Shown here: piece after piece, positions 21,923 through 49,978 of the stretch
How the letters are laid out: every line of letters starts with the position of its first letter
Numbering within the stretch: the stretch's first letter is position 1
Origin: Prochlorococcus sp. MIT 1314
GTDB taxonomy: Bacteria; Cyanobacteriota; Cyanobacteriia; PCC-6307; Cyanobiaceae
Direction: 5' to 3'
DNA: 64,000 nucleotides
Assembly: GCF_034093315.1 (NCBI RefSeq)
Contig: NZ_CP139300.1
Coordinates: forward strand, 496,001 to 560,000
The notes under the pieces: model-generated
The model's input: the letters and a program-made list of their open reading frames with translations, nothing else
Database searches by the model: none
Told to the model about the DNA's origin: nothing
Translations under genes and position numbers: made by a program

Positions 21923-21996
21923 CGGGGCGTGGCGCAGCTTGGTAGCGCGGGTGCTTTGGGAGCACTAGGTCGCAGGTTCGAATCCTGTCGCCCCGA
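21923..21996 (+). tRNA. trnP: tRNA-Pro (UGG), island attachment tRNA
   Basis: A 74-nt cloverleaf: acceptor CGGGGCG pairs with CGCCCCG plus discriminator A. The anticodon loop contains TTTGGGA (UGG), and the T-arm is CAGGTTCGAATCCTG. It is the only intact copy. Its part from the anticodon arm to the 3' end recurs at least eight times downstream, which identifies it as the integration target of the island. Confidence 0.97.
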
Positions 21997-22018
21997 CTCT
22001 TAAAAACCAAGTTATACT

Positions 22019-22045: not shown

Positions 22046-22173
22046 TTGTCTGCAATCTCAAATGAGAAAAGGGATCTGTAGGGGGATCTAGAATGTTTAA
22101 ACATTTCAAAAAGGTGCTTAATAATAGATATTATGATTTTCATTGTTTAATATCTACCTAAAACTGCTAAGAG

Positions 22174-24364: not shown

Positions 24365-24606
24365 AAAAAAAGAGGATTTTATCACTCTATATTAGATCTA
24401 CTTTCGTAAAAAACTATCAATTCAACGACCTAGTTAACATAGGGCACTAGGTTGACTAGGGGGGATCTGTAGGGGGATCTACAACATATAAACAAGTTAA
24501 AACATGTTTAAACTTTATGCAATATCCAATCTCAAACTCATTCCAATAACTATAATTAGACTAGGCTATAACTAAAGTCTCAAGCTTTTCTTAAAAATAC
24601 CGCCCA

Positions 24607-24652
24607 GTGCTTTGGGAGCACTAGGTCGCAGGTTCGAATCCTGTCGCCCCGA
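24607..24652 (+). repeat. tRNA-Pro 3' fragment F1 (att remnant)
   Basis: 46 bp from the anticodon arm (GTGCTTTGGGAG) to the discriminator base, matching intact tRNA-Pro exactly. The usual downstream terminator hairpin is missing here. Upstream lies CTATAACTAAAGTCTCAAG, also found before F5. Confidence 0.95.
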
Positions 24653-24758
24653 TTGACTTCTCACAATTCTTAAAAACTCTCTGGGCGATCTCTGGGCGAT
24701 CATTTGCTATACCTTGCATAACTTTGCATGGTGCATCGCCCGCTATGTTAAAAACCAT

Positions 24759-25082
24759 TTATTCACAAGATCTTTTACTTGATGATGACTGAATTAAATT
24801 ACCCATCCAATTTTTAATATCTGATAAGACTTCCAAATCTAATTTGTAGTAAACCCATCTACCCTCCTGCCTATCAGAGATAAGACCTGAATCTTTTAGG
24901 ATCTTTATGTGATAAGAAATTTTAGATTGAGATAATCCAGTTACTTTAACTATGTCGCAAACGCATATCTCTCCACCCATCATTAATTCAAGAATATTTA
25001 TTCTGATCGGATCTGAGAGGGACTCCATTATCCCAATAAATTGCTTACTATTAATCTTTTTAAGTTGTTCTAACAAAATCAA
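24759..25082 (-). CDS. arsR: ArsR-family arsenic-responsive repressor
   Basis: 107 aa winged-helix repressor. SLSDPIRINILELMMGGEICVCDIVKVTGLSQSKISYHIKIL shows the ArsR fold, and EICVCDIV carries the classical CxC metal(loid) site near the recognition helix (ELCVCDL type). A C-terminal run of Ser and a Cys complete it. It is divergent from gap, with paired operator palindromes between the two start codons. Confidence 0.93.
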   Translation of the reverse strand: MILLEQLKKINSKQFIGIMESLSDPIRINILELMMGGEICVCDIVKVTGLSQSKISYHIKILKDSGLISDRQEGRWVYYKLDLEVLSDIKNWMGNLIQSSSSKRSCE

Positions 25083-25130
25083 AAGATCATTAACTTATTA
25101 AATACTAACCTAAAAAAATTAATTACACAT

Positions 25131-25171
25131 ATCAAGAATTATTGATGCATCAAATATTTTTGATATATAAT
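25131..25171 (+). promoter_or_regulatory. ArsR operator pair and -10 box of gap/arsJ
   Basis: Two palindromes, ATCAAGAATTATTGAT (25131-25146) and ATCAAATATTTTTGAT (25149-25164), separated by 2 bp, lead straight into TATAAT (25166-25171). The placement would let a bound repressor block both the divergent arsR and the gap promoter. The first palindrome reappears exactly, inverted, before pstS. Confidence 0.75.
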
Positions 25172-25193
25172 AAAGCAGTTTTCAATATTTGTT

Positions 25194-26222
25194 ATGAAAA
25201 TTGGAATTAACGGATTTGGAAGAATTGGGAGATTAGTTTTAAGAATTTTATGGGAAAGAAAAGATATTGAAATAACTCATATAAATGAAATAAGTGGGAA
25301 TTCTTTAATTGCATCTCATCTTCTAGAGTTTGATTCCGTTCATGGTAGATGGAATAAAAATATAACTTCGAATGACAACGAAATAATAATTGAAGGTAAA
25401 AAAATTTCCTTTACATCAACAAAGAATTATCTTGATGTTCCATGGAATAAATCTTCGGTTGATCTTGTTTTGGAATGTACAGGGAAAAATAAAGATCCCA
25501 AAGAATTAAATCCATACTTTGATTCTCTTGGAATAAAAAAAGTAATTGTTGCCTGCCCTGTAAAAGGAATTGTTGGAGGGGAACAAGCACTTAATATTGT
25601 TTATGGAATTAATCAAGACCTTTATAAACCTGAAAAACATAAATTAATTACAGCAGCATCATGTACTACAAATTGCTTGGCTCCCATCGTAAAAGTTGTT
25701 AATGAAAATTTCTCAATTAAACATGGGGTCATAACAACTATTCATGACCTTACAAATACACAATCTCCAGTAGATTTTTACAAAAGTGACTTAAGAAGAG
25801 CGAGAGGATGCATGCAAAGCTTAATACCTACTACAACTGGATCAGCTAAGGCGATTGCTGAAATTTTCCCTGAATTAGAGGGAAAACTAAATGGTCATGC
25901 AGTAAGGGTTCCACTTCTAAACGCCTCATTAACCGATGTAGTTTTTGAATTAAATAAAGAAGTAACTGAAGAGCAAGTAAATAATGAATTTAAAAAAGCA
26001 TCTGAAACATACTTAAAAGGTATTCTTGGATACGAGGAGAGACCCTTAGTGTCCGCTGATTACTTAAATGACTGTAGAAGTTCAATAATTGATGGACTTT
26101 CAACGATGGTTGTAAATTCAAAATTATTAAAGATTTATGCTTGGTACGACAATGAGTGGGGTTATAGTTGCAGGCTTGCCGATCTTACTTCTTATGTAAT
26201 TGAAAAAGAAAAGCAATTTTAG
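25194..26222 (+). CDS. gap: Glyceraldehyde-3-phosphate dehydrogenase of the arsenate pathway
   Basis: 342 aa. Rossmann motif [13 protein letters not shown], active site [17 protein letters not shown]-like block ([20 protein letters not shown]), PTTTGSAKA and [15 protein letters not shown]. In ars loci this class uses arsenate in place of phosphate, making 1-arseno-3-phosphoglycerate, which ArsJ exports. The neighbours arsR and arsJ (5 bp downstream) support this role rather than central glycolysis. Confidence 0.93.
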
Positions 26223-26227
26223 TTTTT

Positions 26228-27484
26228 ATGAAGTTATCTAGCCTTCAACAATATAGTGTCGTTACCGCAAACTATTGGGCATTTACTCTTACTGACGGTG
26301 CATTGAGGATACTAGTTGTTGGTCATTTTCATGAACTTGGTTATTCAACTCTGCAAATTGCTTTACTTTTTCTTTTCTATGAATTTTTTGGAATAATTAC
26401 AAATCTTTTTGGAGGCTGGATAGGGGCAAGATATGGTTTAAGACTTACTTTATGGATAGGAACAATTCTGCAAATTCTTGCTCTTTTTATGCTGATTCCA
26501 GTCAAAGAGAATTGGTCAGTAATCTTTAGCGTCTCATACGTTATGTTAGCCCAAGCGCTTAGTGGGGTAGCAAAAGATTTAAATAAAATGAGTGCAAAAA
26601 GTGCTGTTAAATCAATAGTTCCAGATTCAGGAGAGAATAATCAAAATAGTCAAAAACAATTGTTTAAGTGGGTTTCAGTTCTAACAGGATCCAAAAATGC
26701 ACTCAAGGGTGTTGGCTTCTTCCTAGGGGGTCTCTTATACAAGCTATTGGGCTTTAATAATGCAGTTGGAATAATGGGTTTAGGTCTATGCTTGGCATTC
26801 TTCTTAACTTTATGTCTTCCTAAAGATTCAGGGAAAATGAAAAGAAAGCCAATCTTTAAAGATCTTTATTCAAAGTCTCAAGGTATTAATATTCTTTCAA
26901 GTGCCAGGTTTTTCTTATTTGGAGCAAGAGATGTCTGGTTTGTAGTAGCTCTTCCAGTATTTTTAGACATTTCTTTTGGATGGGACTATTTAAAAATAGG
27001 ACTCTTCTTGGGTGGATGGATAATAATCTATGGTTTCTTTCAAGTATTAGCTCCATTACTTAGAAAAGTATGGGGGAAAAATAATAGCCCAACAAAAACT
27101 ACCGTTCAATTTTGGGGACTTATCTTAACTTTTATTCCTTTATTTATTGCTGGAGCATTAAACGGTGATAAATCATTAGGTCCTGTAATTGTTATTGGAT
27201 TAATAATATTCGGCTTTATTTTTGCAATGAATTCATCTACTCATTCGTACTTGATTTTGGCTTATTCAGATAATGAGAAAGTAAGTTTAAATGTTGGTTA
27301 TTACTATATGGCTAATGCAGCTGGAAGATTATTTGGAACCCTACTATCTGGCTTGTTATTTATGCTCGGTAAAAATGCCACTATAGGTATGCAGTATTGT
27401 TTATATACTTCCTCTATTTTGATTTTTATTGCTTGGCTTACTAGTTCTAAATTACCTTCCTATTCTTCCAACAGCCTCAATTGA
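26228..27484 (+). CDS. arsJ: ArsJ, 1-arseno-3-phosphoglycerate efflux permease (MFS)
   Basis: 418 aa, about 11-12 transmembrane segments. It opens with QQYSVVTANYWAFTLTDGAL and contains GALRILVVGHFHELGYS, FGGWIGARYGLRLTLW and FLFGARDVWFVVALPVFL, characteristic of ArsJ. It directly follows gap. The last 33 bp of its coding sequence overlap the 3' end of the convergent pstS. Confidence 0.92.
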   Translation: MKLSSLQQYSVVTANYWAFTLTDGALRILVVGHFHELGYSTLQIALLFLFYEFFGIITNLFGGWIGARYGLRLTLWIGTILQILALFMLIPVKENWSVIFSVSYVMLAQALSGVAKDLNKMSAKSAVKSIVPDSGENNQNSQKQLFKWVSVLTGSKNALKGVGFFLGGLLYKLLGFNNAVGIMGLGLCLAFFLTLCLPKDSGKMKRKPIFKDLYSKSQGINILSSARFFLFGARDVWFVVALPVFLDISFGWDYLKIGLFLGGWIIIYGFFQVLAPLLRKVWGKNNSPTKTTVQFWGLILTFIPLFIAGALNGDKSLGPVIVIGLIIFGFIFAMNSSTHSYLILAYSDNEKVSLNVGYYYMANAAGRLFGTLLSGLLFMLGKNATIGMQYCLYTSSILIFIAWLTSSKLPSYSSNSLN

Positions 27485-28423
27485 TTTTTTTAAAATTTCT
27501 CCTTTCAAGGGAACGAAACCTAAGGCAGGAGCTTTATCTTGATATTCATCGCTGAGCAATTTATAGAATGTATCTTGAATTGCCTTAGTATTTCTTCCAT
27601 TACCTCTTTCGTAAGCAAGTATCCAAGTCAATGTTGCTATTGGATAAGCTCCTTTAGCAGTAGGATTGGGATTTTTACCCGCCAAGTTTTCATCAAGATT
27701 TATTCCATTTAAAGCTATTGCACCTGACTCAGTATTGGGGGTAACGAATTCACCAGAAAGATTTTGAAGTGCAGCAGCCTTAACATTACCTTTAATGTAT
27801 GACTGGTTTACATAACCAATTGCACCTGGAGTATTTTGAATAACACCTGCAACACCAGAATTACCTTTTGCGCCAACTCCGGAAGGCCATTTAACTGATT
27901 TACCAGTACCTAAATTCCAGGTTTTAGAGAAAGCCTCCATCGAATTTGTAAAAGCTTTGGTCGTGCCTGAGCCATCAGAGCGATGCGCCCAAGTTAATTT
28001 ACCTGACTTACATCCTAATTCCTTCCAATTTTTTATCATTCCCATTGCTACTTGAACAGCCTGCTCTTGAGTTAATTTCAAATCGCAATCATAGTTATAT
28101 CCAAACGCAATTGTTCCACCAACCATCGGTATTTGTACGAGTCCTCTTTTAACTTTCTCTATATCAGAATCTTTCATTGGATCATCTGATGCACCAAAAT
28201 TAACAGTTTCGTCTATGAAAGCTTTTCTTCCAGATCCTGAACCTACTGCTTGATAATTAACTCTAGGACCTCCAGATTTAGCTAAGTCAAAAAACCACCT
28301 GGTATAAATTTTCGAAGGAAATGATGCACCAGCTCCACTCAATCTTTTTGAAGCCATCGCAGATGGAGCAAGTATTAATGAAATTGCAGAAGATAAAATG
28401 AGAGTTTTTTTGAAAATACTCAT
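27452..28423 (-). CDS. pstS: Phosphate ABC transporter substrate-binding protein PstS
   Basis: 323 aa with a signal peptide (LSSAISLILAPSAMAS). Phosphate-binding blocks: LSGAGASFPSKIYTRW, VGSGSGRKAFID, NFGASDDPM, WAHRSDGSGTTKAFT and PGAIGYVNQSY. It delivers phosphate to PstCAB. No pstCAB genes are present here, so this copy must use a transporter encoded elsewhere. Its upstream region carries the same operator palindromes as gap, suggesting ArsR control. It overlaps arsJ tail to tail by 33 bp. Confidence 0.94.
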   Translation of the reverse strand: MSIFKKTLILSSAISLILAPSAMASKRLSGAGASFPSKIYTRWFFDLAKSGGPRVNYQAVGSGSGRKAFIDETVNFGASDDPMKDSDIEKVKRGLVQIPMVGGTIAFGYNYDCDLKLTQEQAVQVAMGMIKNWKELGCKSGKLTWAHRSDGSGTTKAFTNSMEAFSKTWNLGTGKSVKWPSGVGAKGNSGVAGVIQNTPGAIGYVNQSYIKGNVKAAALQNLSGEFVTPNTESGAIALNGINLDENLAGKNPNPTAKGAYPIATLTWILAYERGNGRNTKAIQDTFYKLLSDEYQDKAPALGFVPLKGEILKKSIEAVGRIGR

Positions 28424-28494
28424 TAGCCACTTTAATTAAAGTCAATTCATTTATAGCATCAAACAAAAGACGAAATTCAAAGGTTAAGAAATAC

Positions 28495-28536
28495 ATCAAA
28501 TTATTTTGATATAATCAATAATTCTTGATATATAAT
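28495..28536 (-). promoter_or_regulatory. ArsR-type operator pair upstream of pstS
   Basis: ATCAAATTATTTTGAT (28495-28510) and ATCAATAATTCTTGAT (28514-28529). The second is the exact reverse complement of the first palindrome before gap, so read in the direction of pstS the two regions are almost the same. It lies about 70-105 bp before the pstS start. Confidence 0.7.
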
Positions 28537-28819
28537 CTAGCAGCTCAATTAAAACGCTTACTACTTGCATAAAAAAGCTGAGCCTGCATTATTTAATACT
28601 TAAGGCCACAATGTGACAATGATTGGCTCGTGAAAATTATTAGTGTCTTTATGACACTAGGTCATAGCCGGGCGATCCTTGGGCGATCAAATGCTTAACT
28701 TTGCAACACTTTGCTGCATATAAGACAATTCTTGAGACTCATATTAATCCTAGTCATACCAACTAATAAGCTATAGCCTCACTTCGTTCTCATGGATGCT
28801 GTCGCAATTTGCTGATCGA

Positions 28820-28865
28820 GTGCTTTGGGAGCACTAGGTCGCAGGTTCGAATCCTGTCGCCCCGA
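28820..28865 (+). repeat. tRNA-Pro 3' fragment F2 with terminator
   Basis: 46-bp exact copy, followed by CTCAATCAAAACCAAGTCAT and hairpin AGAGAGT/ACTCTCT with T6 at 28888-28914. The upstream block contains AAGCTATAGCCT, shared with F3 and F4. Confidence 0.95.
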
Positions 28866-29140
28866 CTCAATCAAAACCAAGTCATAGAGAGAGTTCCCCA
28901 GACTCTCTTTTTTATTGTAAAGAAGTTGGAATAATGAGACTGAGCGAGATTTGAGCGAGGATTTGCAATACCTTGAGTAACCTTGCTTTATTTAATTCTC
29001 AAATATTATTGGGCTAGATGACCAATAGCATTATTTAAAATATGTAGATTACCAAAATTCTAAATAAGAATTTATAGGACAGACTTAACTATTTCCAATA
29101 GTAAAATTTATACAAAATATATATAGTATCTGATTGCATA

Positions 29141-30015: not shown

Positions 30016-30217
30016 ATTTTTTTATAGATTTGAATTCAAAGGTAAACTTAAAAACCTTATTTTTTATTTTTTGAGCGAGATTTGAGCGAGATTTTGCATA
30101 TTTTTGCAATACCTTACTAAATCTTTTAAATTTTTGAGACTCAAATATTTTGCTTTTATTGCAACAAATAAGATATAGCATAACTTGTTTCTCATGGGGG
30201 CTGTCGCATTTTGCGTA

Positions 30218-30267
30218 GCGGGTGCTTTGGGAGCACTAGGTCGCAGGTTCGAATCCTGTCGCCCCGA
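30218..30267 (+). repeat. tRNA-Pro 3' fragment F3 with terminator
   Basis: The match begins slightly earlier than in other copies (GCGGGTGC). It is followed by hairpin AGCGAGT/ACTCGCT (30291-30297 with 30304-30310) and T6, a stem that differs from the tRNA-Pro terminator at paired positions. Confidence 0.95.
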
Positions 30268-30470
30268 CCATTTAAAATCCAAGTTATATCAGCGAGTTTC
30301 CCGACTCGCTTTTTTATTTCTCATTTGTCTTAAAAACTCAAATAGCGATTAAATAGCGATTATTTGTATAGCTTTGATATACCTAGTAGGCTTAATCGCT
30401 AATGATTATATTTATCTTTGAGTACCTTTTTATTTTTTTAGCTATAAAGTAATTAAGAATTTTATGTTCA

Positions 30471-31055: not shown

Positions 31056-31229
31056 TTATCTTTTAGACATTTTTAAAAATTAGCGATTATTTAGCGATTA
31101 ATTGTATACCTAAGGATAATATTGTATATCTTTGGCCTATTTTTAAGACTCGTAATTTTGTAGATATAGCAACTAACAAGCTATAGCCTGACTTGTTTAT
31201 TTAACCTACTGTCTCAATTTGTCGTATGG

Positions 31230-31275
31230 GTGCTTTGGGAGCACTAGGTCGCAGGTTCGAATCCTGTCGCCCCGA
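31230..31275 (+). repeat. tRNA-Pro 3' fragment F4 with terminator
   Basis: 46-bp exact copy. It is followed by hairpin AGACAGG/CCTGTCT (31295-31301 with 31310-31316) and T6, again a compensated variant of the terminator. Confidence 0.95.
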
Positions 31276-31458
31276 CTCTAATAATCCAAGTCATAGACAG
31301 GTTTCCCAGCCTGTCTTTTTTATTGGATAATTGTCTCATAATGAGAAAGGAGCGCTAGAAGGAGCGCTAGTATCTTCGAAGATCTTAAAAGGGTGCTTAA
31401 ATTGTTAATTGATAGATAAAAATAATTCCAACCCTCTATAAGCTGAACTTATTAAAGC

Positions 31459-37042: not shown

Positions 37043-37262
37043 ACTTAATTGTATGGTCGAGATTGAAAAACATCATTATTTACGACCTTATTAAAATAGA
37101 CACTAGGTCGTATAGGGGAGCGCTAGGGGGAGCGCTAAGTTCTATAAAGATCTTGTATGATCTTCGAAGATTTAGCAATAAGCTGTCTCAAACTCGTTCC
37201 ACCATCTATAGTTAGTCTAGGCTATAACTAAAGTCTCAAGGTTTTCTTAAAAATAACGCCCA

Positions 37263-37308
37263 GTGCTTTGGGAGCACTAGGTCGCAGGTTCGAATCCTGT
37301 CGCCCCGA
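37263..37308 (+). repeat. tRNA-Pro 3' fragment F5 with terminator
   Basis: 46-bp exact copy. It is followed by hairpin AGCGTGT/ACACGCT (37331-37337 with 37345-37351) and T6, a third compensated stem variant. Confidence 0.95.
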
Positions 37309-40052: not shown

Positions 40053-40098
40053 GTGCTTTGGGAGCAAAAGGTCGCAGGTTCGAATCCTGTCGCCCCGA
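40053..40098 (+). repeat. tRNA-Pro 3' fragment F6 with terminator
   Basis: 46-bp copy with AGCAAAAGGT instead of AGCACTAGGT. It is followed by hairpin AGCGAGT/ACTCGCT (40121-40127 with 40134-40140) and T5. Confidence 0.93.
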
Positions 40099-40690: not shown

Positions 40691-40730
40691 TTTGGGAGCA
40701 CTAGGTCGCAGGTTCGGATCCTGTCGCCCC
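40691..40730 (+). repeat. tRNA-Pro 3' fragment F7 with terminator
   Basis: 40 bp, starting at TTTGGGAGCAC, with one change in the T-loop region (TTCGGATCC). Hairpin AGCGAGT/ACTCGCT (40756-40762 with 40769-40775) and T6 follow. Confidence 0.9.
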
Positions 40731-41507: not shown

Positions 41508-41552
41508 GTGCTTTAGGGCACTAGGTCGCAGTTTCGAATCCTGTCGCACCGA
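41508..41552 (+). repeat. tRNA-Pro 3' fragment F8 with decayed terminator
   Basis: 45 bp with several changes (CTTTAGGGCACTAGG, GCAGTTTCGAA, CGCACCGA). The following hairpin AGCGAGT/ACTCTCT (41574-41580 with 41588-41594) has one broken pair, fitting an older copy. Confidence 0.9.
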
Positions 41553-41693
41553 CCCTATAAAACCAAGTCATAGAGCGAGTTTCTCAGACTCTCTTTTTAT
41601 TGTAAAGAAGTTGGAATAATGAAACGGAGCGAGATTTGAGCGATGATTTGCAATACCCTGCATAACTTTGCTGCCTCATGTCCCTCAGTATCA

Positions 41694-41942
41694 CTAGAAA
41701 TAGCTATTAAATATAGAAGTTTTCTTCCAGCCCTCAGCTAGTAATTTTTTATATTCTTCCCTGGCACTTTCTATAGTCTCTACTCTGCTGCCTTTCATAA
41801 CTGGTTTACTACTTCTCTTATAAACACATCCATAAGAAACCATTATTGCATCAACACTAGGACTAGGCTTCGATACATCTTCAAATGGTTCAAATACTTT
41901 TATCCTACTTCTGTCCTTGTTTATAAGAGTAAATTTCTCCAT
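41694..41942 (-). CDS. DUF1651-like small protein
   Basis: 82 aa. MEKFTLINKDRSRIKVFEPF and the C-terminal SAREEYKKLLAEGWKK fit the DUF1651 family of Prochlorococcus/Synechococcus. Its ATG abuts the end of the next gene. A frameshifted copy lies at 44921-45153. Confidence 0.7.
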   Translation of the reverse strand: MEKFTLINKDRSRIKVFEPFEDVSKPSPSVDAIMVSYGCVYKRSSKPVMKGSRVETIESAREEYKKLLAEGWKKTSIFNSYF

Positions 41943-42262
41943 TACTTACCTTTAGATAAAAGAAAATTTAAAAAGATACCTCCAAAGACTAATAAACCAC
42001 CCATAGCCACAAATACAAGTAAATCTATTATTGATTTATCAGTATTTATTTTTAGAAAAGTTAAAGCAAAAGCTATTGGAGGGAATAATAATATTGCTTT
42101 TGGAATAAGTGCATGATTCCATTTCTTTATATCAGTATCTTCTTTGAGTTCTTGATAAATCTTTTCTAACTTTTTTCTATCTTCTTCCATTAAATAAACA
42201 AGTAAGCAAATAATTGCTCCAATACTAAAAATTAAGCTCCACCTCTGTGAGTAAAAAGCCAT
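41942..42262 (-). CDS. Small membrane protein (E9)
   Basis: 106 aa with about three hydrophobic segments (FSIGAIICLLVYLM, ILLFPPIAFALTFL, LVFVAMGGLLVFGGIFL). Translationally linked to the DUF1651 gene (1-bp overlap). A short N-terminal remnant of a paralogue is at about 45165-45225. Confidence 0.6.
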   Translation of the reverse strand: MAFYSQRWSLIFSIGAIICLLVYLMEEDRKKLEKIYQELKEDTDIKKWNHALIPKAILLFPPIAFALTFLKINTDKSIIDLLVFVAMGGLLVFGGIFLNFLLSKGK

Positions 42263-42275
42263 TCAATTTATTCCT

Positions 42276-42359
42276 TTAGTAATGCCAAAGTACCCAAAAT
42301 AATCCACAACCATAAATAATCCCTATCGTTACTACTAATGGCATTAGTATTCTTTTCAT
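42276..42359 (-). CDS. 27-aa membrane micro-protein
   Basis: MKRILMPLVVTIGIIYGCGL plus FWVLWHY. Its ATG overlaps the TGA of the 52-aa gene upstream (ATGA), suggesting coupled translation. Confidence 0.4.
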   Translation of the reverse strand: MKRILMPLVVTIGIIYGCGLFWVLWHY

Positions 42360-42514
42360 CTAATTAAAAATCTACCCATATCATTCATAAAGAACCAAAT
42401 TGCTATTGAAAGATTTAATAGTACTGTGAGAGAAATAGATATTATTAGAAACTTTTCCCCAACTCCTGATTGATTTGCGTCTTTACCCGCAACTGAAATC
42501 GACTCAAGTTCCAT
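42356..42514 (-). CDS. 52-aa single-helix membrane protein
   Basis: A polar N-terminus (MELESISVAGKDANQSGVGE) is followed by one helix (FLIISISLTVLLNLSIAIW). Shared leader with hairpin GGGCC/GGCCC-type and T run right before the ATG. Unrecognised. Confidence 0.5.
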   Translation of the reverse strand: MELESISVAGKDANQSGVGEKFLIISISLTVLLNLSIAIWFFMNDMGRFLIR

Positions 42515-42560
42515 AACAAAAGGGGCTAATTGGCCCTTATTTTAGATCAACTATCAATCA
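42515..42560 (-). promoter_or_regulatory. Shared island promoter/leader (42.5 kb)
   Basis: Minus-strand GATTGATAGTTGATCTAAAA, then AAGGGCCAATTAGCCCCTTT ending 3 bp before the ATG. Confidence 0.6.
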
Positions 42561-42592
42561 TATTTAATATAGCGCTGCAAGCAGTAAGCGTT

Positions 42593-42724
42593 TCATTTGT
42601 TTTCCTCTTGTATCTTCTTAAGTCTTTTGTATTCCTGATTCAGAACACCTAAACGCCAAGCACCTATCAATCCTTTAACACCTTGAGTTAATAGTTTTAC
42701 ATCTGCAGGTGAATGGAACTTCAT
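42593..42724 (-). CDS. 43-aa small helical protein
   Basis: MKFHSPADVKLLTQGVKGLI then GAWRLGVLNQEYKRLKKI. The frame is open further upstream without an ATG. A MKRLLLAAL micro-ORF overlaps its stop as ATGA. Unrecognised. Confidence 0.4.
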   Translation of the reverse strand: MKFHSPADVKLLTQGVKGLIGAWRLGVLNQEYKRLKKIQEENK

Positions 42725-42771
42725 CTCCAAGAATTCTTTCTGCCAAGAAGTGTCGTCCCATTTAGTAGTAA

Positions 42772-43068
42772 TTAATGAGTTACACTCCCGTCCATGATTG
42801 TGATATTTGTATCGATTGAGTTAGCCCAGCGTAACTTGCTTAGTTCCTGATATTCAGAACTGTTATAGGCCTCAATTGCAGCTTGCTTTGACGGGAACTC
42901 AATAATTACCGATAATTTTCCACCTTTCCCTTCAACAGTTTGACTATCAAGATCCTTTGCAAATACATAACCACCTACTGATTCGATCCAAGGTTGAAAT
43001 GCTTCAACATATTCAGTAAACGCTGGATTTGTAACTGTGGTAGTAACGAGCCAAAATCCTTTAGACAT
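42772..43068 (-). CDS. DUF1330-like small protein
   Basis: 98 aa. SKGFWLVTTTVTNPAFTEYV, GKGGKLSVIIEFPSKQAAIE and YNSSEYQELSKLRWANS match the DUF1330 ferredoxin-like fold. Function unknown. Confidence 0.8.
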   Translation of the reverse strand: MSKGFWLVTTTVTNPAFTEYVEAFQPWIESVGGYVFAKDLDSQTVEGKGGKLSVIIEFPSKQAAIEAYNSSEYQELSKLRWANSIDTNITIMDGSVTH

Positions 43069-43138
43069 TAAATAAAAATTTTTTTAAGACTTTAACATGA
43101 AATAGCGGTGAAAGTAGTAAGAGTTTTATATGTTGTCT

Positions 43139-43525
43139 TTATTTAATCCGTAAATACATAAAAGAGGATTGGCTATCAAAACAATCCAAAAAGGAGAAGG
43201 AGGTCCACCATCGACAAATTGTTCCAGCATTAAAAGAATTGAATAAAGCTACTGCCAAAAAACAAGACATTAAGACTAATTCACCAAATAAAACTTTTCT
43301 TAGAGAAGCCTTATCTTTTATGGAACTAGAAATAATCAATAAACAACCAATTCCTAAATTACTAGCTGCTACATTATCCGCAGTACCTCTAACATGAAGC
43401 AATGTTTCATTAGATGCATTACCAGCAATAGTCTCTACGAAAAAACTCAGTAGGAAAATAATTAATAATCCCAATAGAATATGAAGAATTCCAGTATTTT
43501 TAAAATTTTTCTTAACTTCATACAA
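43139..43525 (-). pseudogene. Membrane protein gene with probable C-terminal frameshift
   Basis: 128 residues with three to four helices (ILHILLGLLIIFLLSFFVET, LGIGCLLIISSSI, LVLMSCFLAVALF). After LFNSFNAGT the frame gives an unlikely tail, while the neighbouring frame reads LEQFVDGGPPSPFWIVLIAN then PLLCIYGLNK, far more protein-like. This points to a frameshift. Shared leader with hairpin lies just upstream. Confidence 0.6.
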
Positions 43526-43570
43526 AGAAGGGGTGAAGTTCCTCTTATTTTAGATCGACTGTTAATCAAT
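43526..43570 (-). promoter_or_regulatory. Shared island promoter/leader (43.5 kb)
   Basis: Minus-strand GATTAACAGTCGATCTAAAA, then AGAGGAACTTCACCCCTTCT and the ATG. Confidence 0.6.
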
Positions 43571-43720
43571 AAATTTATAAATTCTATGATCTAGTTCTCA
43601 TAGGGTACTAGGTTTCTTATGAGCGAGATTCGAGCGAGATCCTGTAATAGCTTTCATTTCCTTGCAGAGTGGTATCGCTCAAAATGATTATGAAAACCAC
43701 AAAAAATTCACAATAATCCT

Positions 43721-43915
43721 ATGATTTTAAAAACAATAATTACAATGAAATCACTACTTTCAAGTAAACGATCAAAAGCAATATTAGGAATTGGTTTAAT
43801 AGCTATTGGTATTGGTGCAATTTCAAAAAAGGTCATCAGCTTTTCAGCTGGGGGCTGTATAAAAGGTGATCAAGAGTTGACTATAAATAAAGGGATAAAT
43901 AAGTTCTATATTTAA
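43721..43915 (+). CDS. 64-aa small protein with hydrophobic segment
   Basis: MILKTIITMKSLLSSKRSKA, then AILGIGLIAIGIGAIS and a polar tail with GGCIKGDQELTINKG. A second ATG at residue 9 is an alternative start. Unrecognised. Confidence 0.45.
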   Translation: MILKTIITMKSLLSSKRSKAILGIGLIAIGIGAISKKVISFSAGGCIKGDQELTINKGINKFYI

Positions 43916-44018
43916 CAAGTAATCGTTTCATTTTTAAAGGTCATTTTGAATGATAGATACGCAAATCGACCAAGTAATAACAAACTAGCGACTGCATAAG
44001 TAATTGCTATTAAGTCAT

Positions 44019-44120
44019 TTAATCCTTCTTTTTATCTTTCTTTTTTTTATTAGTTCCTTCTATAAATGGAACGAGTAAATCTAGTAACCACCTTTTAAAT
44101 ATGTCTATTGGATTATTCAT
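44019..44120 (-). CDS. 33-aa amphipathic/basic micro-protein
   Basis: MNNPIDIFKRWLLDLLVPFI followed by EGT and a Lys-rich tail. One of three consecutive micro-ORFs on this strand. Confidence 0.4.
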   Translation of the reverse strand: MNNPIDIFKRWLLDLLVPFIEGTNKKKKDKKKD

Positions 44121-44124
44121 TGTT

Positions 44125-44217
44125 TTATCTAATAAAGTAAAAAATCCCACCAACAAATGTGCTTCCTACAAGTAATAACACCATTAAAAGAGCAATTAAT
44201 TTAGGTAAACTTCCCAT
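44125..44217 (-). CDS. 30-aa single-helix membrane micro-protein
   Basis: MGSLPKLIALLMVLLLVGST then FVGGIFYFIR. Ends 4 bp before the next micro-ORF. Confidence 0.4.
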   Translation of the reverse strand: MGSLPKLIALLMVLLLVGSTFVGGIFYFIR

Positions 44218-44222
44218 CACTA

Positions 44223-44342
44223 TTAATGATATTTATTGAGTAATCGATTATAAATCACCAACAATACTATTAATCCTCCTATACCAAGAATTGCATGGTA
44301 TGGGTCATGATGATTCTGCCAAAGCTCCTGTAAAAATTCCAT
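44223..44342 (-). CDS. 39-aa single-helix membrane micro-protein
   Basis: MEFLQELWQNHHDPYHAILG then IGGLIVLLVIYNRLL. A decayed paralogue lies at 45238-45355 (KELWHNQPST then stop), which supports a real gene family. Confidence 0.5.
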   Translation of the reverse strand: MEFLQELWQNHHDPYHAILGIGGLIVLLVIYNRLLNKYH

Positions 44343-44789
44343 ATAAAATTACTCAATTATATATTGAGAGTAATCATTATCTAATTAAATATATAGAGTA
44401 ATTATTCTCTAATTTAATTATCAGATTCAGCATAAATAAAAAAAGTATTTGTCCCCTCCAATCTAGCCAATGCAGTTTTAATACTTTTGCTTCTTAAGTA
44501 TTCACTAAAATTCTATCCTGCTTTTCCTTATGTTATTTCTAGTAATTTTTCTCCCGCTGCTAACCTTTGCGCCAATTTATAAAATAACACCAATTAAAAC
44601 CTTTCCCATCTATATCTCTAACCATTAAATGTAATAATTTCTTTTAAATATTAACTTCAACTATATAAAATTCTTATTTGAAATTTTGAGTTAATTACTT
44701 CATATAATCTCTTTATTGTAACTATAGCGGGCCAATATTGAACTAAACATTATTTTTTTGATTATATAAGGTGGTTTTAAAAACTGTAT
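44343..44789. other. AT-rich stretch, no gene seen
   Basis: About 450 bp with only short interrupted frames. Probably decayed island DNA. Confidence 0.4.
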
Positions 44790-44820
44790 AAAAAGTCTTC
44801 CTAACTCTCTTTTTTATTGT
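44790..44820 (+). repeat. Orphan copy of the island terminator segment
   Basis: CTTCCTAACTCTCTTTTTTA corresponds to the 3' arm and T tract of the tRNA-linked terminator. It is followed by TTGAAAGGGCACTC as after F6. The tRNA part and 5' arm are gone. Confidence 0.6.
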
Positions 44821-44920
44821 TTATTGTCTTAAATTTTGAAAGGGCACTCTGGGTGGATTCGTTTGAAGTATTTTGATCTAAAATGTTCCACCTTAATAAC
44901 TAGAAACAACTCCTGTAGAT

Positions 44921-45153
44921 ACTTATTTCTTCCATCCTTCTTCTAGTAACTGCTTATATTCTTTTCTAGATTGTTCGATAGTCTCCACTCTCGAATCTTT
45001 CATAACGGTTTTACTACTCCTTTATATACACATCCATAACTAATCATCGTTGCATTAATAGGAAGAGTAGGTTTAGATAAATTCTCAAATGGTTCAAAAC
45101 CATTATCCTACTTCTGTCCTTATTTATAAAAGTAAATTTTTCTACTTTATCCA
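44921..45153 (-). pseudogene. Frameshifted DUF1651-like gene
   Basis: Begins MDKVEKFTFINKDRSRIMV, clearly related to 41694-41942, then shifts frame; later segments of the family are recognisable in other frames. It is followed upstream by a truncated copy of the neighbouring membrane gene, so the two-gene unit was duplicated and decayed. Confidence 0.65.
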
Positions 45154-45237
45154 TTAAATATAAAATAAGCAAAACATTGCTCCAACAGTAAAAATCAAGC
45201 TCCACCCCTGAGAGTTAATATTCATTAAAAAATACTA

Positions 45238-45355
45238 TTTATATGTATTGAGTAATTTTATATAAATTGTTAAGAATAATACTATTGCTGCACTTGAACC
45301 AATTTAAGTACTTGGTTGATTATGCCAAAGCTCCTTAACAAATTCTTTATTCATT
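45238..45355 (-). pseudogene. Decayed copy of the 39-aa membrane micro-protein
   Basis: MNKEFVKELWHNQPST, stop, then AAIVLFLTIYIKLLN, matching 44223-44342 in layout. Confidence 0.55.
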
Positions 45356-45612
45356 TAAAGAATTGGATATGCTATCCAACCAAATAAGGTGTAATTAATA
45401 ATGACAGCCATGAAGCCTATCATTGCAAGCCTTCCATTTGTTCTTTCCGCAATAAACCAATAGCTATTTGGCCATTCAAAAATTTCCCCCTTATTGGATA
45501 TTTGATCTTCTGAGACAGGAGTCTCTTCAGAAGTTTTGTACTGATCAAGATAATAATTACTGTCTGGGTAAAAGCTTTCGCTTGACATATTTTCTGATTT
45601 AAAATCAACCAT
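45355..45612 (-). CDS. hli: High-light-inducible protein with polar N-terminus
   Basis: 85 aa from the ATG giving MVDFKSENMSSESF. The C-terminal half holds the HLIP motif WFIAERTNGRLAMIGFMAVI, with the Glu/Asn-Arg pair that binds chlorophyll, and ends FGWIAYPIL. The open frame extends 24 codons further upstream, but that part is basic and unlike HLIPs. A third start is MSSESF. Island location fits the known mobility of hli genes. Confidence 0.88.
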   Translation of the reverse strand: MVDFKSENMSSESFYPDSNYYLDQYKTSEETPVSEDQISNKGEIFEWPNSYWFIAERTNGRLAMIGFMAVIINYTLFGWIAYPIL

Positions 45613-45739
45613 TATATTAAAAATTTTATATAAATATCTTAAAAAGATTTTGTTAATTATGTTGTTCCCAGTTCCTAAAACCACACTATTAATTTAATAA
45701 CAATAGGAGGAAAATATAGATGTAGATACAGGAGGTCTT

Positions 45740-45886
45740 ATGAAACTCATTACTCCCTTCACTATCCTCAATAAAAACTTCCACGAAATGGATTTTACTA
45801 AAGAAGCAATAAAAAGCAGAAAGTTAGCAACTAAAAGATTGCATGAAGATTATAGAAAAATATACAAACTTCACCAATTTGCTTAA
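45740..45886 (+). CDS. 48-aa basic small protein with strong RBS
   Basis: MKLITPFTILNKNFHEMDFT then KEAIKSRKLATKRLHEDYRK. AGGAGG ends 5 bp before the ATG, unusual in this window and good support for translation. Function unknown. Confidence 0.6.
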   Translation: MKLITPFTILNKNFHEMDFTKEAIKSRKLATKRLHEDYRKIYKLHQFA

Positions 45887-46024
45887 TTAACTTTGAGGCT
45901 TGTTGTCAGGTCGATTATAGACTTTATTATTTTTCTTTCTTTTTGATTTCTTATAAACCGCAAAAAATCCTAAAAATACTAAAGGAATTAGTAAACCCTC
46001 TAGAAATAAGGGGAAATTAATCAT
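45887..46024 (-). CDS. 45-aa membrane protein with basic tail
   Basis: MINFPLFLEGLLIPLVFLGF then FAVYKKSKRKKNNK. Its start overlaps the end of the next upstream gene by 8 bp. Confidence 0.45.
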   Translation of the reverse strand: MINFPLFLEGLLIPLVFLGFFAVYKKSKRKKNNKVYNRPDNKPQS

Positions 46025-46160
46025 ATACGGGGACTAATGGTAACGATTTTCTCTCTTCAGCCTCCCTATAAAGAAAATAGATAAAATAGCCTCTAGTAAC
46101 AGTGATGCTAGCGGTTAAAAATGCTAATACGACACATATAGGGCAATGAGGGAATCCCAT
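46017..46160 (-). CDS. 47-aa membrane protein with CxxC
   Basis: MGFPHCPICVVLAFLTASIT followed by a short tail (EAEERKSLPLVPVYD). The CPIC at the N-terminus could bind metal or form a disulphide. Overlaps 45887-46024. Confidence 0.45.
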   Translation of the reverse strand: MGFPHCPICVVLAFLTASITVTRGYFIYFLYREAEERKSLPLVPVYD

Positions 46161-46246
46161 ATTAAAAGTTTATTTTTGATTATATTGTCGGGAATCTAGG
46201 GAGACAATAAGCAAAAATACTAAAAAACAGGCTCCAAACTTGCAAA

Positions 46247-46390
46247 TTAATCTCGACCATGAATACTTCTAAAAGAACCAACATAATGAAACTGTTCTCT
46301 ATTAATACCTAAATTCTGTATGAGTTTAGAAGTTGTAAACACACCCATTCTAAAAGTTGAAGTCAACTGATTCTTTTTTGGTCTAGCCAT
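46247..46390 (-). CDS. 47-aa basic small protein
   Basis: MARPKKNQLTSTFRMGVFTT, then KLIQNLGINREQFHYVGSFR. Soluble, nucleic-acid-binding-like charge. Unrecognised. Confidence 0.45.
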   Translation of the reverse strand: MARPKKNQLTSTFRMGVFTTSKLIQNLGINREQFHYVGSFRSIHGRD

Positions 46391-46499
46391 AAATAAGATA
46401 AAAAATACTCATTAATATATAGAGTAATTATTTTCTAATTAAATATCTATTATTCCAGGGTTCCCCGCTTCTAATTGTTAAATATATTCCACTATTTAA

Positions 46500-46640
46500 T
46501 TCACTTTAGCCAGTATTTTTCATCTAATCTATGAGCGTAGTCCCTTAAAATTTTTTCATCTTTTTGGGAATGTTACTTCTAGATATTCTCCACCTCAATA
46601 AAAATTTATAGAAGAAATATTTTATCGAAGAGAGCATAAA
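46500..46640 (-). pseudogene. Frameshifted relative of the 41-aa E1 protein
   Basis: Starts MLSSIKYFFYKFLL. In shifted frame it shows IPKK, then KILRDYAHRLDEKYW, like QKMAEILRDYADRLDG at 24239. It is preceded by a CTCCTCTTTCTTTATG leader, also similar. Confidence 0.55.
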
Positions 46641-46774
46641 GAAAGAGGAGTTTAGCGACGCTTTATCCCCTCTTTTTTGTTGAAACTTTTTGCTAGGCGT
46701 CTCTTTCTTTTTTGAGTAATTGTTTTGATTGCAATTAATAGCAAATATTGCTTTGATATAAAAAATACTCTTCA

Positions 46775-47269
46775 ATGATTAAAGTCTTAATTACTCTTCT
46801 AACTTCATTTCTTATTTGGTTTGGCATTGTAAAAATATTTACCAAAGATAATGAGAATTCAATTAATGTTCTTTCAATTAAATTTTTTAATGATTTCACT
46901 TTAATCTTTCGAAATATAATTGATCTTTTTGATTCTCTTTTTAAAAGCTTCATTCAAATCTATGAACTTTTAGGTACATTATTGAAAAATGTAGTTGGGA
47001 TATTTAAGTCATTGATGTCTGCTTTTATTAAATTCCTAAATCTCTTTAGAATAATAGGGACTACTTGTTTATCCTTTATTTCTTTATGTAACGGATTATT
47101 CCAGGCATCCAGAAAGATTAATCTATTTAATAATTTTGAATTAATCCTTAATAATACTGATACCGCCAAAAATAATGTAGTTAAATTAAATGAAAAAACA
47201 GAAGAAAATAAAAAGGAAGAAAGTTTTATTCCTGCTTTTTTAGGTCGACTTTCATTTATTAATAAGTAA
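46775..47269 (+). CDS. Hydrophobic/amphipathic protein, unknown
   Basis: 164 aa. One clear N-terminal helix (LITLLTSFLIWFGIVKIF), then long amphipathic stretches rich in Phe, Ile and Leu (DLFDSLFKSFIQIYELLGTL). Lys/Glu-rich near the C-terminus. Unrecognised; it may associate with membranes. Confidence 0.5.
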   Translation: MIKVLITLLTSFLIWFGIVKIFTKDNENSINVLSIKFFNDFTLIFRNIIDLFDSLFKSFIQIYELLGTLLKNVVGIFKSLMSAFIKFLNLFRIIGTTCLSFISLCNGLFQASRKINLFNNFELILNNTDTAKNNVVKLNEKTEENKKEESFIPAFLGRLSFINK

Positions 47270-47431
47270 TTACTAAATAATATTTTTTTTTAATCGCGAT
47301 ACTGCCGACATTTTGGGAGATAAAATGTATTCTATTATACGAATTTCTTTAAATATTTATTTTGTTTAAAAATCACATGCTTTTTATAATCAATTTAGCT
47401 CATTTATTCTAATATTTGTAACTTTATAGAA

Positions 47432-47584
47432 TTAATTTTTAAATTTTTCTACCTTATTTTCTAATTTACAAATAACAGAATCAAAAGCACTCTCAAGATC
47501 TTTTGTATTGAGTCTCGAATAGCTTTTCAAATGTGTTTCTAGTTTATGGCCCATTGCATCAGCTATTTGTTTTATAGAAAACAA
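47432..47584 (-). pseudogene. C-terminal remnant of a tyrosine recombinase/integrase
   Basis: The last ~50 codons of a phage-type integrase: IKQIADAMGHKLETHLKSYS then RLNTKDLESAFDSVI. It has the catalytic His of the G-H box (AMGH) and the nucleophile Tyr (KSYSRL), correctly spaced. A TGA lies just upstream in frame, and the N-terminal core with Arg-Lys-HxxR is absent. It is the only recombinase trace in the island. Confidence 0.75.
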
Positions 47585-47603
47585 TCAGTAGAGATAGTTT
47601 AAA

Positions 47604-48404
47604 TTAATATAGGCTAAAAACGGCCTGAAAAGGTCCACCGGCAAATTGGCCTACAACATTTCCATTATTATTAGTTGGTATTATTGTCATTCCACTATTA
47701 GATACGGTAAATTTCACTTCTAATCCTTCGGTACTATCTTCAATGACTACAGAATTAGTCAGTGCTAATGCTCCAACCAAATGAGTTGCATCACAAGCTG
47801 TTGCCGTTACATAAGAACTATTCGTCAATCTTGCTGCCATAGTGCCTTCAGTAAGATTTTCACTTGCTTTTGCATCATCAGCATTATATGGATTACTGCA
47901 ACTTCCACTGAAACTTTGCAAAGTTTCTGTAAAATTTTCAGCTGTACAATTAGGGGTCCCATCCGCTGTAGCATCACTCTTAGAACAATATGTAGTTCCA
48001 TTTAACTGATAACTTCCCTTTAGCCCAAATGTATTAGTCATCTTCACATATGCATGAGGATATGTTGCACTTGCTGGTCTTGTGCTAGTACCACCAGATA
48101 GAGTTGCTACTCCTGCGGCAACATCAATTTCTACACCATCAGTATTTGTATAAGTTGCAGTACAACTATCATCCTCGAAATCATTTCCAGATAAAGGGTT
48201 AGAAGTACATAGTCCCATTTCTAATATCTTGACGACATATCGATCTGGTGTTTTATAACAACCATTTGCATTAATAGATGAAGGATTATCTAAACTACAA
48301 ACATTTGCATCTACAGGCTCAGGCGTAAGAAGGAAAGCACTCATACATACACCAAATCCAGTTGAAAGTCTGAGAAGATAGTTTTGTGATTTAAAAGTAG
48401 TCAT
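47604..48404 (-). CDS. Secreted Cys-rich protein next to barrel gene
   Basis: 266 aa. A signal peptide (about 12-34, LSTGFGVCMSAFLLTPEPVDA) precedes a Thr/Ser/Asn/Gly-rich, beta-type sequence with about ten Cys (NVCSLDNPSS, GLCTSNPLSG, FSGSCSNPYN). A surface or fibre-like protein is likely. It lies 44 bp downstream of the inverse-autotransporter-type barrel on the same strand and may be its partner; inferred. Confidence 0.65.
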   Translation of the reverse strand: MTTFKSQNYLLRLSTGFGVCMSAFLLTPEPVDANVCSLDNPSSINANGCYKTPDRYVVKILEMGLCTSNPLSGNDFEDDSCTATYTNTDGVEIDVAAGVATLSGGTSTRPASATYPHAYVKMTNTFGLKGSYQLNGTTYCSKSDATADGTPNCTAENFTETLQSFSGSCSNPYNADDAKASENLTEGTMAARLTNSSYVTATACDATHLVGALALTNSVVIEDSTEGLEVKFTVSNSGMTIIPTNNNGNVVGQFAGGPFQAVFSLY

Positions 48405-48448
48405 AATTAGGAGATCAAAGATTTAATAATTAATTAAAGAATTAAGAG

Positions 48449-49624
48449 CTATTTACTGGTTGCCCTATTTGTAAATGATCCTGTCGATCTTTCAAGTAAA
48501 ACATCATACTTACGTTTGACAGGTTGAGTCATTTGAGTAATCATAGTTTTCTTATAATTTGATCTCTCAAATTTGACTGGATTGCCAGTAATATTTATTC
48601 TTAAACCAAAAAATGTTTCATCTGTCCCTGGCAGTGAGCTGTTTACTGTAGTTGAAGCCGCTGAAATCTCATTAGAAACCCAAGCTTCAAGGCCAACATA
48701 AGGTGTAGCTTGCCAACTCATTGAGCCTTCTAATCCTGAATTATCTTGGGTATTTTTATAGTCCCAGTTAAATCCTCTTACAAAAAAAGCAAGTTCTGGA
48801 TTATTTGGTAATCTGTAACCTAATTCAACATCCCAGCCTGGGACTACTCTCTCTTCGTAAGAAACACCTTTTATAGTTACATCCTTCTCTTCAGTAATTG
48901 ACATATACCAGTTATTTCTAAACTCAAAATCTTTCCAGAAATATTCTCCACCTAATCCAAACCTACTATGGGCATCACTATAATCTGTCATTCTGTAATC
49001 CCAGAACGCATTAGCTCCAACCATAGATATATCATTAGGACGATTTCTAATTCCTAAACCAAGATTAATAGTTGAACCATCTGCATTTGTGGCTGTAGCA
49101 AATCTTGCCTGAGAAAAAGCGAGAGTTTTTAAATCGCCTTCTTCATCTTTTGCAAGTTCACCAAGTTTCATTAGGCTATTAACTGAGAAACTTGTATCTG
49201 ATTCCGTTCCGCCCGTAATATTTACAGAAGTCTGAGCAAAAAATGGGATTTTTTGTATCTCACCATTGGCTTTTGCATTGGCAAAATCAAATCCAGCATC
49301 AACCAATAATGTCTTAACATCATTAGCCACGATGTCTGTATATTCACTCCCCTCTGCACCATCATTCATTAAAGTTACAAACTTCGTTGAATAAGTTGCT
49401 CCTTTAATTATGTATTCATCTAATTTGTCTTTTGGACTATAACTATTTTTTACATTTAAGCAATTTTTTAAGGCCGCTTTATTTAAATTGCAATTAGCTT
49501 CAGCATAATTTCTATTATTTAAAAATTTTGCCTCATTTTGCAATTGAGAATCAGCGAAGGCTGAAGTGCTATTACCAATTAAAAAGGATGCAAAGGCAAT
49601 CTGCAAATAATGCTTTTTAATCAA
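48449..49624 (-). CDS. Inverse-autotransporter (intimin/invasin-type) beta-barrel protein
   Basis: 391 aa with a signal peptide (ASFLIGNSTSAFADS). Residues ~170-320 match the inverse autotransporter barrel: INLGLGIRNRPNDISMVGAN, AFWDYRMTDYSDAHSRFGLG, EYFWKDFEFRNNWYMSI and ERVVPGWDVELGYRLPNNPE. The C-terminal PVKRKYDVLLERS resembles the segment that follows the barrel in intimins. Intimins normally continue into Ig-like passenger domains; here the protein stops, so it is passenger-less. Confidence 0.75.
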   Translation of the reverse strand: MIKKHYLQIAFASFLIGNSTSAFADSQLQNEAKFLNNRNYAEANCNLNKAALKNCLNVKNSYSPKDKLDEYIIKGATYSTKFVTLMNDGAEGSEYTDIVANDVKTLLVDAGFDFANAKANGEIQKIPFFAQTSVNITGGTESDTSFSVNSLMKLGELAKDEEGDLKTLAFSQARFATATNADGSTINLGLGIRNRPNDISMVGANAFWDYRMTDYSDAHSRFGLGGEYFWKDFEFRNNWYMSITEEKDVTIKGVSYEERVVPGWDVELGYRLPNNPELAFFVRGFNWDYKNTQDNSGLEGSMSWQATPYVGLEAWVSNEISAASTTVNSSLPGTDETFFGLRINITGNPVKFERSNYKKTMITQMTQPVKRKYDVLLERSTGSFTNRATSK

Positions 49625-49888
49625 AATTTTATTAAGAGTTAAATAGTTTATAAATTAAAAAATATAAATTATCTACAAATTTTAGGATATTGATGTAATT
49701 CAATTAAAAGTTAATTTATTACTAAGTTCCCATGGAAATATTTATTAAATAGCTCCTAAGAGGCCCTTTTGACTTCTATCGTTTAATAGAAAGCAATATT
49801 CGAACTAATTTTGGTGTCTCAAAAATGAGACTCCATCAGAAAAATATTCAGTAGTAATAGTCTCATATATCACTAAAAAATTGTCCCT

Positions 49889-49978
49889 AATGCTTTTGGA
49901 GCTATAGGTATCAGGTTTGAATCCCGTAGCCCTAACTCAATCAAACCCAGTTCATAGACAAGAATCCCCAACATGTCT
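49889..49978 (+). repeat. Degenerate tRNA-Pro fragment plus terminator remnant
   Basis: ATGCTTTTGGAGCTATAGGT and CAGGTTTGAATCCCGTAGCC align with the tRNA fragment. The following AACTCAATCAAACCCAGTTC aligns with the segment after F2, and AGACA/TGTCT with T5 is the terminator relic (49956-49978). Confidence 0.8.

Follow-up and report, generated by a model that had tools for sequence, protein, structure and literature searches.

A probable dead integrase tail among integrase-less cassettes with paired end tags in a Prochlorococcus tRNA-Pro array

Introduction

Integron gene cassettes form arrays of cargo that has no integrase of its own, and the arm sites of Tn916 and lambda are laid out as repeats at a fixed distance flanking the core. 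Two further classes of element bear directly on the locus described here: the tycheposons of Prochlorococcus, whose length is quoted as 4–200 kb in PMC10872708, and CIMEs, which, according to PMC5704250, keep both att sites, have lost the integrase and accrete in tandem at a target gene.

We analyzed a 64,000-nucleotide stretch of Prochlorococcus sp. MIT 1314 (hereafter the window; positions 496001–560000 of a one-contig, 1.70-Mb genome), which contains an array of cassettes behind a tRNA-Pro(TGG) gene and a 50-codon recombinase remnant. Our overall explanation, to which we assign a probability of roughly 0.8, is that the remnant is the dead C-terminal tail of the integrase of a tycheposon-type element at tRNA-Pro(TGG), fused by a deletion, that its neighbors are tagged, integrase-less units moved in trans, and that the remnant was probably not their helper.

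The locus resembles tycheposons in its genus, in the tRNA gene at its border and in the tyrosine recombinase of the remnant's intact relatives; unlike tycheposons, the units in the window have no recombinase and several fall short of the quoted 4–200 kb, and the passages of PMC10872708 consulted do not mention paired private tags. With CIMEs the cassettes share both att sites, the missing integrase and the stacking at one target gene, but CIMEs, as portrayed in PMC5704250, are decayed and move along with a neighbor, whereas one cassette of the window (C2) recurs with changing neighbors on both sides. As with Tn916 and lambda, there are repeats at a fixed distance flanking a core and, in the model of an intact relative, N-terminal strands and a helix; here, however, the repeats differ from element to element and are common to integrase-bearing and integrase-less units. 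Integron cassettes are likewise arrays of integrase-less cargo, but here a tRNA 3′ end serves as target and every unit is individually tagged.

Results and discussion

The remnant and its full-length relatives

An earlier note on this DNA had described a 50-codon recombinase C-terminus that retains a GH box and the nucleophilic Tyr; alignment confirmed that description. Searched against 101 genomes of the genus, the remnant best matched the C-terminal end of a 433-codon frame (83% identity, E = 2.8e-20) that is present in two copies in genome G050; matches at E ≤ 0.01 occurred in 29 of the 101 genomes, the window's own among these, mostly to frames of about 400–470 codons, plus some truncated ones. 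The integrase-like part comprises residues 3–50 (about 47573 down to 47435, minus strand). In the alignment the GH box and the Tyr are present and the RPEE and SFRHR boxes are missing; intact relatives have GLRP, SFRHR, GH and Y. One frame read upstream on the minus strand to 47700 contained no continuation of the integrase. Because DNA similarity to the intact G050 element extends beyond the stop codon as far as 47280 (47280–47573, 82% over 297 columns), about 150 bp of its former 3′ flanking DNA is retained as well. The sole Pfam match of the 50-mer was sub-threshold, to S30AE (18.3 bits, cut-off 23.7); when intact relatives were tested with PF00589, one scored 25.4 bits against a cut-off of 27.1, and two others had no Pfam match. 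Searches of the window with PF00589 and with a profile of the remnant's family returned no second integrase trace and no integrase in the cassettes, which agrees with the note on both counts, as does the location of the remnant outside the intact cassettes, in the collapsed interval C9 (Table 1).

Compared over 31 aligned codons with eight intact members of its clade, the remnant shows 3–4 replacements against every one of them, versus 0–1 between intact copies; it is therefore a pseudogene fragment, though not a very old one. Could the frame nonetheless encode a small functional peptide that has been retained? It is open, and 6–12 of its 9–15 base differences from intact copies lie outside the change booked as replacement (these other differences including second changes within replaced codons). 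However, the upstream domain is absent, two catalytic boxes are lost and three replacements within the 31 codons fall at sites that are invariant in all eight intact copies, which leaves the peptide a very slim chance.

The full-length integrases most similar to the remnant sit in tRNA-bounded elements. Among 82 relative integrase ORFs, 61 have a tRNA-Pro(TGG) 3′ fragment upstream, in opposite orientation and within 800 bp, and 16 lie at tRNA-Thr, -Ala or -Gly fragments; for the remaining 5 no tRNA fragment was found. (The loci were selected by family match and include near-identical copies, so the sample is non-random; the same applies to the loci behind the right-end and tag counts given below.) Of the 63 loci with this family, 58 are from Prochlorococcus and 5 from Synechococcus; 26 of the 63 entered alignment A2. 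In the remnant's own clade, nine uninterrupted ORFs (counting the identical copies L023 and L024, and leaving out a tenth close-clade integrase, L029 in G070, with an interrupted frame) start 137–147 bp from the tRNA-Pro(TGG) 3′ fragment. The tRNA-Pro repeat of the window also serves as the att repeat of the full-length relatives, and because clade genes start so close to the repeat that bounds the cassettes, the comparison identifies the source of the remnant as an element integrase rather than a chromosomal XerC/D. The same 46-bp fragment bounds the cassettes of the window, which places the remnant in the integrase family that would use this repeat.

A chromosomal XerC/D-type recombinase as the source of the 50 codons was considered and rejected, and we give it next to no weight. 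An intact relative did show a weak PDB match to a XerC-like protein (E = 0.048), but the best matches were not XerC/D-like and lay in tRNA-bounded elements, and the genome's own 389-aa recombinase is a distant relative (E = 8e-6) located elsewhere. That recombinase and the remnant were what the family profile recovered from the genome, with no intact close family member. A search of 50,697 phage records did not find the family, and no occurrence in viral contigs was confirmed.

In intact elements the integrase gene comes last, at the distal end before the repeat, about 147 bp away and directed opposite to the tRNA. The 12 integrase-bearing intervals that we measured span 2.1–11.0 kb, some of them possibly composite; in the window, the remnant's own element has lost its ends. 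Two tycheposon hallmarks can be traced for the remnant's parent: the tRNA at the border, seen in the tRNA repeats of the relatives and in the array repeats of the window, and the tyrosine recombinase, intact in the relatives and present as a tail alone in the window. Other truncated integrase copies exist, two of them near repeats. In G195 an internal deletion fuses both ends of the integrase and retains the 147-bp element end and the repeat; in G163 the integrase deletion extends into the element end, part of which is lost.

Table 1. Positions within the window of the array repeats, end tags, cassettes and remnant.
Feature	Position	Strand	Remark
Intact tRNA-Pro(TGG), attachment gene heading the array	21923–21997	+	
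C1 left tag	22071–22090	+	Same 20 bases at right end
C1 right tag	24462–24481	+	Inside 41-bp run identical to integrase-bearing L124
tRNA-Pro 3′ repeat, C1 end	24607–24652	+	
Cassette C2: GAPDH, MFS transporter, periplasmic-binding-type protein, integrase-less	24653–28819		Unit recurring with same borders
C2 left tag	24683–24701	+	
C2 right tag	28670–28688	+	
tRNA-Pro 3′ repeat, C2 end	28820–28865	+	
C3 left tag	28941–28959	+	
C3 right tag	30072–30090	+	
tRNA-Pro 3′ repeat, C3 end	30222–30268	+	
C4 left tag	30343–30365	+	
C4 right tag	31081–31101	+	
tRNA-Pro 3′ repeat, C4 end	31230–31275	+	
C5 left tag	31349–31370	+	
C5 right tag	37117–37138	+	Inside 26-bp run identical to integrase-bearing L191
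tRNA-Pro 3′ repeat, C5 end	37263–37308	+	
tRNA-Pro 3′ repeat	40053–40098	+	96%
tRNA-Pro 3′ repeat	40691–40730	+	97.5% over 40 bp
tRNA-Pro 3′ repeat	41508–41552	+	91%
Collapsed interval C9 holding the remnant	41553–49895		Left-end tag (41627–41645) mismatches right end
Module with 164-aa ORF (46775–47269)	46683–47292	+	89% in another G137 array interval
Integrase remnant: last ~46 codons and ~150 bp of 3′ flank	47280–47573	−	82% DNA, 83% protein identity
50-codon open frame and stop housing the remnant	47432–47584	−	First residues not integrase-derived
Fusion point	47574–47580		Integrase similarity stops at 47573; porin-type module begins at 47579–47580
266-aa ORF and 391-aa inverse-autotransporter beta-domain protein	47604–49624	−	Cargo of cassette fused to remnant
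Decayed tRNA-Pro repeat, C9 right border	49896–49937	+	76% to repeat at 37269

A decaying array and its collapsed end

Identity of the repeats falls along the array from 98–100% in the first six copies to 91–98% and then to about 75%. New elements would enter at the intact tRNA, and older ones would be displaced outward and decay; the remnant, where the repeats are most decayed, would then sit in an old part of the array. In kind, the remnant is ordinary: a dead tRNA-Pro element integrase in an old, collapsed part of the array. An almost full-length tRNA-Pro copy, which the Rfam model still scores as a tRNA, lies within the array at 30197–30267, a sign that the sequence carried by certain elements may extend beyond the tRNA 3′ half. 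A second, short tRNA-like motif, comprising roughly ten anticodon-arm bases, occurs at the outer edge of right ends in the window (24444, 28654 and 37100); many elements have it in the same place, which in intact ones is close to the integrase start.

In interval C9 the remnant is fused to a porin-like cassette. To the right of the fusion point lies a porin-type module that matches G137 from 47580 (90%) and G222 from 47579; this module opens with a 266-aa ORF that ends at 47604, and next comes an inverse-autotransporter-type gene whose 391-aa product belongs to PF11924 (Pfam, E = 3e-62). A related gene pair in G142 forms an intact cassette flanked by two tRNA repeats. Judging from the gene order and from the intact arrangements in G142 and G050, a single deletion most likely explains the fusion of integrase and porin cassette; it would have taken the N-terminal part of the integrase together with the 147-bp end and the tRNA repeat beyond it, as well as the porin cassette's left end. 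A second junction in C9, at 47280–47292, suggests that the left side of the remnant region may also be rearranged. In line with a collapsed stretch, the ends of C9 are unpaired: its left end resembles the C3 type (score 17 against the C3 right end, 11 against its own right end). Mismatched ends are also found in C6 (37309–40052) and C7 (40099–40690), which are probably further collapsed units. In G137 the porin pair (L090, 6979–8834) is inverted relative to the array, and cargo orientation is therefore not fixed.

Paired end tags

Each of the cassettes C1–C5 carries a private tag of about 20 bp at both ends, a tandem repeat of 8–10-bp units with a period of about 11–12 bp whose sequence varies between cassettes and agrees within one. 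(At the right end, the remnant's clade and some others have an inverted repeat instead.) When left tags were scored against right tags, C1–C5 gave 15–21 on the diagonal and 7–13 off the diagonal among these five. Across all ten intervals of the window, 6 of the 90 off-diagonal scores reached 12, our threshold for a match, the highest being the 17 for C9 left against C3 right, and the observed sum was reached in none of 100,000 permutations of C1–C9. Over all loci, 52 of 101 distinct cassettes scored 12 or more, compared with 64 of 1212 mispaired ends; the other 49 cassettes fell below 12. Among integrase-bearing intervals 3 of 12 passed this score, and by eye about 7 have a common unit and 5 do not. 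The best tags occupy fixed spots, which lie some 30, 52 or 75 bp beyond the end of the tRNA and some 110 or 147 bp ahead of the following repeat, and element right ends (from repeat to integrase start) are alike within integrase clades. No description of paired end tags was found in the literature searched, the original tycheposon paper lying outside that scope.

With their repeats, matching ends and lack of an integrase, C1–C5 show one defining trait of a CIME, attL and attR being kept and integration genes lost. The definition also includes decay from an ICE or IME and movement in cis with a neighbor; C2, for its part, recurs with no fixed neighbor. They have no tyrosine recombinase of their own, and because none was found in the window outside the remnant, we do not file them as autonomous tycheposons.

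We infer that the tag is an arm site bound by an integrase; paired tags would then indicate which integrases, supplied in trans, a cassette is compatible with. A more far-reaching reading, to which we give even odds, is that tRNA-Pro arrays are an address-coded cassette system: integrase-less cargo would be flanked on either side by a private tandem tag that serves as arm site for one integrase class, cargoes could trade end pairs, and in any cell that receives it an integrase of that class could excise and spread every cassette so tagged. Helpers would then be predictable from about 20 bases of sequence. Much of the gene-content variation of this abundant marine phototroph is located in such islands, and if tags reveal which integrase moves which cassette, the mobility of integrase-less island genes would reduce to a simple excision test. 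As arm sites, the paired tags would matter more than the remnant, since helper and cargo could be assigned from sequence and decayed pieces such as the remnant told apart from true helpers.

Recurrence of cassette C2 with changing neighbors

The integrase-less cassette C2 recurs as a whole unit in different surroundings. We compared nine loci, namely the window and 8 of 30 others, read with longer flanks and picked by similarity and left-side contig extent; six contain a long C2 (4156–4167 bp) and three a short one (1438–1450 bp, with the binding-protein gene). All nine have a left tag of the same type. With alignment over half or more of 1.2 kb as the criterion for a shared neighbor, the left neighbor was common to 1 of 36 pairs of loci and the right neighbor to 0 of 28; in a wider set of C2 loci with shorter flanks, the right neighbor was common to 1 of 45 pairs and the cargo to 39 of 45. 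In G050, C2 cargo (95% over 3.8 kb) lies between ends of the C4 type (left 88% over 135 bp, right 97% over 142 bp); because both ends differ from those of C2 yet match each other, end pairs and cargo are recombinable. The C2 gene set (GAPDH, MFS transporter and binding protein), seen at 24653–28819 in the window and at 11194–15520 in L023, is reminiscent of arsenate or phosphate-stress sets.

The simplest reading of these comparisons is that units like C2 insert and leave whole, with an integrase supplied in trans. The earlier note's proposal of cargo-only units mobilized in trans is thus supported for C2, the cassette for which we have recurring borders and changing neighbors. The cassettes could instead be stranded, CIME-like deletion derivatives that are themselves immobile, in arrays shuffled by homologous recombination at the 46-bp tRNA repeats. 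Integrase deletion derivatives do exist (G195 and G163), the ends of C6, C7 and C9 are mismatched, and the G050 copy demonstrates that C2 cargo can acquire other ends. However, those G050 ends were exchanged together, as a matching pair, and the borders of C2 stay constant through six long and three short copies with almost no neighbor in common. We therefore favor movement in trans and regard stranding, with recombination at the 46-bp repeats, as an unlikely but still live rival.

The C2 type of right end matched 109 of 249 genomes and the C3 type 87 of 249 (E ≤ 0.001), many of these matches being partial. At 60 loci with C2- or C3-type right ends (two being the window itself, and some having short flanks), adjacent ORFs were compared with the integrase family of the remnant, and none belonged to it. 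One C2-type right end (L229; G109:C1:1059996-1060173), at which a tRNA repeat was not seen, lies beside an ORF that resembles photosystem II D1 (psbA).

Was the remnant the helper?

The earlier note had also suggested that the remnant may stem from the helper element of the cassettes, an idea that comparison of the element ends does not support. The right end of C1 is 91% identical over 170 bp to that of an integrase-bearing element of another clade (L124); other-clade integrase-bearing elements were likewise matched by the right ends of C5 (90% over 162 bp) and C8 (77% over 176 bp), and C6 had a weak match to another clade (72% over 90 bp). For the right ends of C2, C3, C4 and C7, the sampled loci yielded no integrase-bearing match. 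Tags identical to those of integrase-bearing elements were confined to C1 and C5, and these elements too are from other clades and lie in other genomes. With up to four mismatches allowed, the window contains no occurrence of the end motifs of the remnant's clade. More generally, 63 of 117 integrase-less right ends matched an integrase-bearing end, compared with 3 of 115 in the control; at least one of the 63 matches is trivial (the tRNA gene itself, 30 bp), and for 22 of these matches the alignment covers at least 120 bp.

Since C1 and C5 share their tags exactly with other-clade elements and the window lacks the end motifs of the remnant's clade, a helper role for the remnant is unlikely, and its integrase was probably not the helper of the neighboring cassettes. 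On sequence grounds its parent most likely belonged to another compatibility group, and the remnant seems to represent an element of its own within this array, one that is older and has collapsed. That a single helper, of which the remnant is what remains, mobilized all nine cassettes would fit the tRNA-Pro repeat common to the cassettes and the remnant's relatives, as well as the remnant being the only recombinase trace found in the window. But in addition to the missing motifs, no right end in the window has a member of the remnant's clade as its best match, and the matches of C1 and C5 fall in one group of other clades, whereas C2–C4 are of another type; we consider mobilization of all nine by this helper highly improbable.

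A PF00589 search of 121 genomes for the helper of C2–C4 turned up, among others, small recombinases without a tRNA 3′ repeat (8 loci read, with flanks of about 1.5 kb). These small tyrosine recombinases, of 183–225 aa (L262, L273–L276 and L278–L280), mostly have ATPase-like genes and an ORF of about 160–220 aa nearby, and several share contigs with larger integrases.

A predicted arm-binding domain

A structure predicted for an intact relative of the remnant, L289 (mean pLDDT 84, pTM 0.52), begins with a first helix (residues 6–18), followed by three strands (23–28, 31–38 and 42–51) and a helix (57–73). An arm-binding domain consists of three strands and a helix, as stated in PMC8138268, and the N-terminus of the L289 model, compared as part of the whole model, is predicted to have this arrangement. 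In Foldseek the integrases of lambda and Tn1549 came out on top, at E = 8.6e-5 to 3.4e-4 (probability 1.00) and with lambda Int as the best hit, and structural comparison gave Z-scores of 11–12 at an rmsd of 6–10 Å (9.6 Å for lambda Int), a comparison that barely probes the N-terminal domain. The model thus supports a tyrosine recombinase fold for the intact relative L289.

Across integrase pairs, tag similarity had partial rank correlations of 0.24 and 0.26 with the N-terminal and catalytic domains, respectively, and hence followed the N-terminal domain no better. One pair of integrases, L109 and L116, has catalytic domains that are 97% identical and N-terminal domains that are 60% identical; the inner ends of the two elements are identical and the outer ends differ, which is suggestive of a possible natural domain swap.
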